Origin: Thermanaerosceptrum fracticalcis
GTDB lineage: Bacteria > Bacillota > Peptococcia > DRI-13
Assembly: GCF_000746025.2 (NCBI RefSeq)
Contig: NZ_CP045798.1
Span: 372,001 to 436,000, forward strand
Direction of reading: 5' to 3'
DNA: 64,000 nucleotides
Part shown: piece after piece, positions 2,651 through 14,936 of the stretch
Numbering within the stretch: position 1 is the stretch's first letter
Layout of the letters: each line of letters opens with the position of its first letter
Translations under genes and position numbers: made by a program
The notes under the pieces: model-generated
Told to the model about the DNA's origin: nothing
Seen by the model: only the letters and a program-made list of their open reading frames with translations
Database searches by the model: none

Positions 2651-3469
2651 CTAAACAGGGGTGTTAGGGGACGGAGTCCCTTCAGTAAAATATCTTTCCC
2701 GTACATCCCGGGCCATTTCTGCAATACGATTAGACACCTGGGGAATGGAAAAACCCAAATAAATAGGCGAGGTGACAAAGCGGGGCATGATCTTGGCGAT
2801 GATCTTTTCCTCCAGTTTGTAAAAGAAGAGGTTGTAACTGTTGCAGTGATAGTCAAAGTAGTTCAAAACATAGTGAACGGCGGTCTGGATATAATCCGCC
2901 ATCTGATCAATCTGGTTTATATCACTGAGAACCACGTTAAATTCAAAAAAACCAACACGTGGTTTGGTAGAAAGGTTGAATTCCACCCCCGGGGCTTGGG
3001 TGATGACAACACCTTCAAAATCTTCTTCCCTGATATTTTCGCGGTAATCAACTTTTTTTAGGCCTACAATTTGCATATGGGGATGGAAGATGGTTCCCCC
3101 CGAAAAGGGCCCATGATTTTTGAAGAAAATAACGGAACTAAATTCACCGCTGTTTTCTATTTCCAGCCATTTTTCCACACCGAAACGAATTACGTGGTGC
3201 AGGTGTTCTTTAGAGTATATGGAAAGTTCTTCATCACAATTGTAAGTTTCTATTAACACCAGTTGAAGGGTATCTTCCAAAACCGGATATTTATTCTTGA
3301 GAAGGACGAGGGGACCTTCGGATGCCAGGATATCGACCAAACTTTCACGGTTGCAGAAAGGACAGCTTGTGTCATTTTTTTGTGCTGGATTGGGCTTTTG
3401 CCGGGCGATGGTCCTGGGTTTCTGAGCGCCCAGGTGGGAATTAAAGTGTAAATGAGTACTGGAAGACAT
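2651..3469 (-). CDS. DUF4931 / galactose-1-phosphate uridylyltransferase-like protein
   Basis: The 272-aa protein has the HIT/GalT-type nucleotide-binding signature FHPHMQIVGL (His-Pro-His-x-Gln) around residue 150, and an early CPFC pair that could bind zinc as in GalT proteins. The length fits the DUF4931 family of Firmicutes better than full GalT enzymes, so a sugar-nucleotide or nucleotidyl-transfer role is inference. The ATG at 3469 is preferred because AAGGTGAG lies just upstream; an earlier in-frame GTG at 3478 overlaps that site. Monocistronic. Confidence 0.75.
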   Translation of the reverse strand: MSSSTHLHFNSHLGAQKPRTIARQKPNPAQKNDTSCPFCNRESLVDILASEGPLVLLKNKYPVLEDTLQLVLIETYNCDEELSIYSKEHLHHVIRFGVEKWLEIENSGEFSSVIFFKNHGPFSGGTIFHPHMQIVGLKKVDYRENIREEDFEGVVITQAPGVEFNLSTKPRVGFFEFNVVLSDINQIDQMADYIQTAVHYVLNYFDYHCNSYNLFFYKLEEKIIAKIMPRFVTSPIYLGFSIPQVSNRIAEMARDVRERYFTEGTPSPNTPV

Positions 3470-3826
3470 TAATCTCACCTTAATTCACTTATGTTCTCAT
3501 AGTTATCATAACTATATTTTACAAGAAAAGCTATAGCTTTAGGATCAGTTATAATTAAAATGCGAGATATACTTACGAAGGAATTTTGTATACTACACTG
3601 AATTAAACCAGGAATTTTGTATACGACAGTTATAAAGTAATATATTGTATTCAAAAAAATCATATAAGAAAGAATCCTCATAATATAAATAATAATACAT
3701 AATACATACGTAAAAATAATTGACTTGCTAGTAAACTGTAATCTATAATGTGAAACAACAAAGCTAATACAGGCTGGATTAATTCCAACTGTATTATAAC
3801 AATTGAAATAATTAAAAATACAAAGC
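3470..3826. other. AT-rich intergenic region with 15-bp direct repeat
   Basis: This very AT-rich stretch separates the DUF4931 gene from the nif leader. AGGAATTTTGTATAC occurs twice, at 3579-3593 and 3610-3624, exactly 31 bp apart (about three helical turns). It could be an operator pair for the minus-strand gene. A 117-codon minus-strand frame here has atypical composition and is not called. Confidence 0.5.
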
Positions 3827-3894
3827 AAAGGCGCTTTTATTTTCGGGAACTCTGGCTCTTAAAAGTCAGCAGACCAGAAGATAAAAGCGCCTTT
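3827..3894 (+). ncRNA. nif leader hairpin element 1
   Basis: A perfect 14-bp outer stem pairs 3827-3840 (AAAGGCGCTTTTAT) with 3881-3894. Inside is a second possible stem, TCTGG (3851-3855) with CCAGA (3874-3878). There is no strong T-run. Together with the next element it forms a tandem pair upstream of nifH. Confidence 0.6.
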
Positions 3895-3953
3895 CACTTA
3901 ACTATAAAATTACATTCAATACAGATAACAGAGTAGTTGCTGTATTTGAGGGC

Positions 3954-4022
3954 AAAGACGCTTTAACAAGAGGAAAAGAACTGGAAACGGTGATTTTCCT
4001 GCCAGTTAAAGCGTCTTTTTCT
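3954..4022 (+). ncRNA. nif leader hairpin element 2, terminator-like
   Basis: A perfect 14-bp stem pairs 3954-3967 (AAAGACGCTTTAAC) with 4005-4018 and runs into a T-rich tail, so it can act as an intrinsic terminator about 40 nt before nifH. The base differences from element 1 are matched on both arms. An inner AGGAAAA/TTTTCCT stem (3971-3977 with 3993-3999) or an alternative AACTGG/CCAGTT stem (3979-3984 with 4002-4007) is possible; the latter would compete with the outer stem, a feature expected of an attenuator. Confidence 0.6.
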
Positions 4023-4050
4023 ATATCTATTATTTTATTTAAAAGGATAG

Positions 4051-4890
<840 letters not shown>

Positions 4891-13042: not shown

Positions 13043-14113
13043 ATGCCTGTAAAAGTAGGTGACCATTATTCCTTCATTATTGACAGGACTATTCCGGAAC
13101 TATTAAAAACAAACGGTGACATAACTGGTCGAGAGTTACAGAAGTTCATTTTAATACTGGCCAGGAGCGGTGTGGACTATGTTGAAGTGAACAGCTCCGC
13201 TCTGGCTGTGCTGGAGTACTTACCCAGCACTGTTAGTTTTATTTTTAGAGTGGAAAAACCTGAGGATCTGTACAAATATAAGGGTTCTCGCCTTCCTTAC
13301 TGTGTGATGGATTCTGATTTAGTACAGGATAAAACATTGGCCAAAAGGTTCAGCAGGATTAAGATGAAGGCTATTGTGGAGTTTGAATTCACCGGACCGG
13401 GTGATTTACAAAAGCTTGAGCTGATAAATGGCTGTGCAGGTTGGCGCTGGGTAGACGCAGTACGGATTTCAGGTTTAAGTCACGCGTTTCTTCCAGAATG
13501 GCACCAGGCTGTGGAGGAAGTGAGGAAGTTAAAGGTTAAAGTGGATATTTGCCCCCACAACCGGTATTATTTAGCTTCGTCAACAGCTCTGGAATTAACG
13601 GGGAAAGGCGATACAATAGATTTTGTGACCGTAGCTTTTTCGGGTATGGGCGGTCTTTATGGGTTTGCTGCTCTGGAAGAATTAGTAATGGGATTAAAAG
13701 TAATTAAAAAAGTGGAGATCCCAGGGGATACAGCTTTGTTTTCTCACCTCAGTAAGTTATACCAGGATCTAAGTAAACGATGCATTAAAAATAACAAAGC
13801 CATAATAGGATCCAGCATATTTAAATATGAATCAGGTATTCATGCCGATGGTATTGAGAAGAACCCTTTAACATATGAACCATTTGACCCCGGGATGGTG
13901 GGGCAGGCAAGAAAACTGGTACTGGGCAAACATTCCGGATCAAGATCGGTAATATCCAAATTAAAGGAATTAAACCTGGAGATTCCTGAGGAATATACCT
14001 CACTCATACTGGAATGGGTCAGGAGCAGCAGTGCTCAACTGAAGAGGGAAATCTATGATTATGAACTGGCCCGTCTTTGCCAGCGCCTCACTAACGGTCT
14101 GCCGCTCATATAA
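13043..14113 (+). CDS. nifV: homocitrate synthase omega subunit NifV-omega
   Basis: A 356-aa HMGL-like protein corresponding to the omega half of the split clostridial homocitrate synthase. The core barrel is diverged (no DxTxRDG start; IDRTIPELLKTNGD instead), while KYESGIHADGIEKNP and LGKHSG mark the LeuA/NifV C-terminal part. It works with NifV-alpha to make homocitrate, the organic ligand of FeMo-co. GAGGTG precedes the ATG. Its 3' end is 13 nt from the nifV-alpha start, so a two-subunit enzyme is expected. Confidence 0.87.
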   Translation: MPVKVGDHYSFIIDRTIPELLKTNGDITGRELQKFILILARSGVDYVEVNSSALAVLEYLPSTVSFIFRVEKPEDLYKYKGSRLPYCVMDSDLVQDKTLAKRFSRIKMKAIVEFEFTGPGDLQKLELINGCAGWRWVDAVRISGLSHAFLPEWHQAVEEVRKLKVKVDICPHNRYYLASSTALELTGKGDTIDFVTVAFSGMGGLYGFAALEELVMGLKVIKKVEIPGDTALFSHLSKLYQDLSKRCIKNNKAIIGSSIFKYESGIHADGIEKNPLTYEPFDPGMVGQARKLVLGKHSGSRSVISKLKELNLEIPEEYTSLILEWVRSSSAQLKREIYDYELARLCQRLTNGLPLI

Positions 14114-14126
14114 ATATGGTGAAATT

Positions 14127-14936
14127 ATGGAAATAAGGATTATTGATACAACTCTTAGAGATGGGGAACAACAACCTGGTTTGGCGCTGGATTTTAATGA
14201 TAAAATCGAAATTGCCAAGCTGCTGAACAGTATTGGCATATATCAAATTGAAGCAGGAATACCTGCTATAGGCGGCGAAGAGAAAAAAAGTATAGAAAAG
14301 ATGGTCGAACTAAAGCTCAATAGCAGGATTTCAGCCTGGAACAGGATGAATATCAGTGATATCCAGCATTCCATAGATTGTGGAGTGGATATTATTCATA
14401 TATCAGTACCGTCTTCCGACCTCCAGATTGCGGCCAAGCTAAAAAAAGACCGGAAGTGGATTCTTGACCGGTTGAAAAGATGTGTTTATTTTGCCAGAGA
14501 GCATGGCTTTACGGTCAATGTAGGGATGGAGGACGCTTCCCGGGCAGACTTGGCTTTTTTACTTGAGTTGTGCTCTCATGCCTTTGCCGAAGGAGCCCAG
14601 ATGGTAAGATACGCCGATACTGTCGGGATACTTTCTCCGGAAAGGATACTTGCCGAGATATCTTATCTTAAAACAGCCGTTCCTGTAGACCTGGGGTTTC
14701 ATGGTCACAATGACTTCGGCCTGGCGGTGGCTAATTCCCTTGCGGCAGTCCAGGGTGGCGCTAACTATGTGGACTGTACAATTGGCGGGATTGGGGAGAG
14801 GGCTGGCAATTGCGATTATCTCCAGTTTATGAAAGCGATAAATGGCTGTTTGCGGTTGGGGATAAGGCCTGGAATGGAAACTCTGAAATCGGTTGAAGAG
14901 GAAATAATGAAGATAATTAGTGTCCCATGGCTGTAA
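14127..14936 (+). CDS. nifV: homocitrate synthase alpha subunit NifV-alpha
   Basis: The 269-aa catalytic half of the split homocitrate synthase (acetyl-CoA + 2-oxoglutarate). IIDTTLRDGEQQPGL is the family signature with the metal-binding Asp and catalytic Arg, and GFHGHNDFGLAVAN carries the metal-binding His pair. It stops after the TIM barrel, without the regulatory C-terminus. ATG 14127 gives the normal MEIRIIDTTLRDG start; upstream in-frame ATGs lie inside the omega gene. Confidence 0.92.
   Translation: MEIRIIDTTLRDGEQQPGLALDFNDKIEIAKLLNSIGIYQIEAGIPAIGGEEKKSIEKMVELKLNSRISAWNRMNISDIQHSIDCGVDIIHISVPSSDLQIAAKLKKDRKWILDRLKRCVYFAREHGFTVNVGMEDASRADLAFLLELCSHAFAEGAQMVRYADTVGILSPERILAEISYLKTAVPVDLGFHGHNDFGLAVANSLAAVQGGANYVDCTIGGIGERAGNCDYLQFMKAINGCLRLGIRPGMETLKSVEEEIMKIISVPWL

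Follow-up and report, generated by a model that had tools for sequence, protein, structure and literature searches.

The nitrogenase operon of Thermanaerosceptrum fracticalcis is preceded by a leader in which two long and similar hairpins stand ahead of nifH, and the question raised by this locus is what kind of element these hairpins form. A sequence-only reading of the 64-kb window (the whole stretch of 64,000 nucleotides analysed here) took them for two copies of an RNA regulator or attenuator of nitrogen fixation that could not be assigned to a known class. The notion of an attenuator is well supported, with homologous structures present in other nif leaders, and the class can be named: the elements resemble ANTAR dual-hairpin antiterminator/terminators. 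Judging from sequence features, we consider it highly likely (probability about 0.88) that the leader contains two ANTAR-type transcription attenuators in series, which would control nif expression under nitrogen limitation.

Architecture of the nifH leader

The leader features and nifH all lie on the forward strand. nifH (4057–4890; TIGR01287, 468 bits) is the first gene of nifH-nifI1-nifI2-nifD-nifK-nifE-nifN, and its start is more likely ATG 4063 than 4057, given the spacing from the GGAGG at 4050–4054 and the usual N-terminal sequence. By sequence, a sigma-A type promoter for the operon, TTGACT-18-TATAAT, occupies positions 3720–3749 (TTGACT at 3720, TATAAT at 3744), and its position puts the presumed transcription start near 3756. 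The leader RNA spans about 3756–4062, and both stems are located between the promoter and nifH. By eye, we also noted an IS4-type transposase-like gene at 182–1315, upstream of the nif cluster and ~2.4 kb from the hairpins, as well as two overlapping homocitrate-synthase-like frames of the split nifV type (13043–14113 and 14055–14936) followed by a modC-like ABC ATPase.

The stem of the first element (unit 1) pairs AAAGGCGCTTTTAT at 3827–3840 with ATAAAAGCGCCTTT at 3881–3894, and that of the second (unit 2), separated from the first by 59 nt, pairs AAAGACGCTTTAAC at 3954–3967 with GTTAAAGCGTCTTT at 4005–4018. The sequence-only reading had described both as perfect 14-bp stems, and this description is confirmed. 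Inverted repeats reaching 14 bp were absent from three shuffles of the 64-kb window, so such long stems are not expected by chance; compared with shuffled sequences, the folding z-scores were −8.2 and −6.5 for the two units and −9.3 for the whole leader. The two stems differ at positions 5 (G-C in unit 1, A-T in unit 2), 12 (T-A, A-T) and 14 (T-A, C-G), and all three of these pairs are changed on both arms, in agreement with the compensation claimed before. The T-run reported about 40 nt ahead of nifH is likewise present (4014–4020), and it makes unit 2 a predicted intrinsic terminator (3954–4018). The terminator-like hairpin of unit 1 (3827–3894) has a poor U-run (CUUUCACUU), its 3′ tail consisting of three U followed by CACUUAACU.

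ANTAR-type hairpins in the two units

Targets of ANTAR proteins follow published rules: two hexaloop hairpins (P1 and P2) whose loops have A as the first and G as the fourth base (A1/G4), a linker of 5–12 nt, and a P2 that overlaps a terminator (PMC3369931). In unit 2, a P1 hairpin at 3926–3939 (hexaloop AGAGUA, closing pairs AC/GU, stem of 4 bp) is followed 9 nt later, inside the published range, by a P2 hairpin at 3949–3964 (AGGGC[AAAGAC]GCUUU, stem of 5 bp), and both hexaloops are A1/G4. This P2 overlaps the 5′ arm of the terminator, with the U-run behind it, and the two folds are mutually exclusive. On sequence grounds, unit 2 is a complete predicted ANTAR dual hairpin overlapping a terminator with a U-run.

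The canonical pair of hairpins is not found in unit 1, where a P2-type hairpin (3822–3837; AAAGC[AAAGGC]GCUUU, also A1/G4) is present and no A1/G4 P1 occurs at the expected place. We regard unit 1 as a probable second unit that is weaker or has partly decayed. In both units the 5′ arm of the terminator begins within the hexaloop hairpin GC[AAAGRC]GC, which carries the A1/G4 signature. The three hexaloop hairpins had been overlooked in the sequence-only reading, and the arm sequence AAAGRCGCTTT common to the two units is explained by the small hairpin lying across the 5′ arm of each. An identical 7-bp stem, AATACAG/CTGTATT, stands ahead of both units: at 3766–3795 it forms a 5′-end hairpin (P0 of unit 1) that has no A1/G4 hexaloop, and at 3918–3946 it extends the P1 region of unit 2, which is capped by UAAC[AGAGUA]GUUG.

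The leader matched no Rfam family at the gathering threshold, and the best permissive score, 22.3 bits, falls short of the cut-off of 47. For a covariance model, R1, dual hairpins were taken from the nif leaders of other families, with the sequence of this genome excluded. All linkers in R1 were set to ten bases by trimming or padding, since a MAFFT alignment with the real linkers was misaligned. In an unfiltered scan of both strands of the 64-kb window, unit 2 ranked first (19.0 bits, E = 0.0027) and unit 1 second (12.7 bits, E = 0.19); R1 is short, its E-values are rough, and its seeds were chosen by the ANTAR rules. The top match listed in the scan of the whole genome was the glnA leader (27.8 bits, E = 4 × 10−4). 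The nif site is missing from that genome-wide list and was probably skipped by the fast first pass of the scan, because its score in the unfiltered window scan exceeds that of the second-ranked listed match. Genome matches scoring 17 to 18 bits were regarded as chance matches, and the ones inspected lie in or over coding frames.

Related leaders and alternative readings

In this genome, a gene for a receiver-ANTAR protein lies immediately ahead of glnA, amtB and glnB. PF03861 matches were obtained at 226272–226430, together with a receiver domain, and at 111043–111159, whereas ANTAR proteins were found in none of 14 control genomes. The latter match (G000:C1:111043–111159; 3457–4047 on the minus strand of locus L122) comprises only the C-terminal ANTAR part, with no recognised receiver domain, and adjoins a TauE-like transporter gene. 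The leaders of glnA and amtB in this genome contain the same dual hairpin and terminator as unit 2; in the amtB leader, UGCCAC[AAUGAU]GUGGUA is followed by a linker, AAGAAC[AAGGGC]GUUCUU and the terminator.

We surveyed 79 nifH leaders, 43 from Bacillota and 36 from other phyla as judged by record titles. A P2-type hexaloop over a terminator was detected in 34 of the 43 Bacillota leaders, 18 of which have two or more, and in none of the 36 leaders of other phyla; the terminator pairing is imposed by the search, and the independent evidence consists of the loop letters and the counts only. In the controls, 2 of 79 reverse strands and about 2 of 79 shuffled sequences gave a hit. When no constraint was placed on the loop letters, 70 hexaloops overlapped a terminator, and 58 of them begin with A or G and carry G at position 4.

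The nearest relative, a leader of the same genus (L039), is identical from 3843 to the start of nifH. Upstream of 3843 there are about eight differences, some of them in unit 1 and its first hairpin, and the apical part of the 3766–3795 hairpin is not conserved. A leader from the same class and another family (L012) has a TTGACT-17-TATAAT promoter in the same place, a 5′-end hairpin ATATAACAG/CTGTTATAT at the same position and similar to the AATACAG/CTGTATT hairpin, and two serial units, which were the two best matches of R1 at that locus. Each unit of L012 shows one fully matched change (C-G to T-A at position 6 of unit 1, T-A to A-T at position 10 of unit 2); its unit 1 has two further changes from G-C to G-T, and its unit 2 has one broken pair. 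The Sporomusaceae nifH leaders (L040, L044–L048, L051 and L054) mostly contain two serial P2/terminator units of the form AAGC[AATGRN]GCTT. They have no A1/G4 first hairpin, and some have a loop that starts with G; another rule may apply to the first hairpin in this family. An A1/G4 P1 is missing in many Sporomusaceae units, as it is in unit 1 of T. fracticalcis. The survey as a whole suggests that Bacillota commonly carry ANTAR attenuators in series ahead of nifH, including sites that do not have a canonical first hairpin.

Among the alternatives, the hairpins could be plain tandem terminators or mRNA-stabilising hairpins outside ANTAR control, insulating nif from upstream transcription or protecting the 5′ end of nifH. 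Strong stems, one of them with a U-run, and the lack of a canonical P1 in unit 1 would fit this scenario. We nevertheless regard it as improbable, as the location of the promoter upstream of both hairpins places them inside the leader, unit 2 has a complete dual hairpin, the P2 loop rule is enriched across nif leaders, and the dual hairpin is common to the glnA and amtB leaders of the same genome.

Another alternative is a new riboswitch-like attenuator that would switch by RNA alone through AACTGG/CCAGTT, the alternative pairing proposed in the sequence-only reading. The inner CTGG/CCAG words do occur in both copies as described, but their pairing is absent from the minimum-energy folds of both units, and forcing it costs 8.4 kcal/mol in unit 1 and 13.4 kcal/mol in unit 2. 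Forcing AACTGG/CCAGTT costs 13.8 kcal/mol, the CTGG/CCAG pairs are not seen in L012, and the loops enclosed by the arms show no conservation. According to these folding calculations the inner pairs are probably irrelevant, and what competes with the terminator is the P2 hexaloop hairpin overlapping its 5′ arm; we consider a switch of this kind very improbable.

A repeat of the MITE or REP type, mobile or spread through the genome and inserted here twice, to which the two similar palindromic units with their similar flanking AATACAG/CTGTATT stems and the transposase-like gene about 2.4 kb upstream might point, is largely refuted and hardly credible, as the 3.8-Mb genome holds no further copies of the hairpin elements and the same layout is kept at nifH in L012. 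The exact 13-mer AGCAANGRRGCT has six scattered matches in the genome, which are uninformative.

Predicted mechanism and known systems

In folding of the growing transcript, P1 and P2 are the best structures until the 3′ arm of the terminator emerges, after which the terminator wins by 17.6 kcal/mol (−44.8 compared to −27.2 kcal/mol for the P1/P2 fold). As P1 and P2 form first and the terminator prevails later, a protein that holds P2 would decide between termination and read-through. Under nitrogen excess, the long hairpins would form and RNA polymerase would halt ahead of nifH. When nitrogen is limiting, the receiver-ANTAR protein from the gene next to glnA would become activated, bind the emerging P1/P2, hold P2 and block the terminator, and the nifHI1I2DKEN operon would be transcribed. 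That the glnA-adjacent protein acts on the nif leader under nitrogen limitation is proposed by analogy with known ANTAR systems and with NitR (PMC6316151). The proposed switch, in which an RNA-binding response regulator would act on nif and probably on glnA and amtB as well, offers a concrete and testable mechanism by which nif genes of the nifHI1I2DK type could be switched without NifA/sigma-54 in anaerobic Bacillota.

One could speculate further that the units act jointly, with the P1-less unit 1 or the AATACAG/CTGTATT hairpins recruiting an ANTAR dimer or handing it to unit 2, and with two successive antiterminations needed. We consider such joint action rather unlikely; if true, the serial units would make the nif response steeper than that of single-site ANTAR targets.

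Known ANTAR targets include eutP/eutG of Enterococcus faecalis (EutV), nasF (NasR) and amiE (AmiR) (PMC3369931, PMC8934654). Like these, unit 2 has two A1/G4 hexaloops, a 9-nt linker and a P2 over the terminator 5′ arm, and the AGCAANGRRGCUY-like core is shared, the unit 1 version being AGCAAAGGCGCUU. Linkers of 5–12 nt were seen in eut genes, and closing pairs matter in eutP (PMC3369931), which the AC/GU closing pairs of P1 in unit 2 recall. Unlike these targets, the nif leader has two units in series before one gene, the first of them with no canonical P1; its terminator loops measure 37–40 nt, and P1 of unit 2 is extended by the AATACAG/CTGTATT stem.

Our literature search on ANTAR and nif returned only a 2012 prediction and general ANTAR papers. 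In that work, Ramesh et al. predicted ANTAR targets before nitrogenase genes of Pelobacter carbinolicus and an ANTAR regulon of nitrogen genes in Desulfotomaculum acetoxidans, with 13 sites in six transcription units (PMC3369931). As in those predictions, an ANTAR target and a terminator precede nitrogen-metabolism genes here, with several sites per transcription unit; the lineage is different, the present genome being Peptococcaceae-like. NitR, an ANTAR regulator of GS/GOGAT genes in Clostridium saccharobutylicum (reviewed in PMC6316151), differs in that the predicted targets in T. fracticalcis also include nifH and amtB; as with NitR, the receiver-ANTAR gene adjoins glnA and the glnA leader has an ANTAR site. 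The type of switch is therefore known, was predicted in 2012 and is common before nif genes, and the site described here is most likely an ordinary one of its kind.
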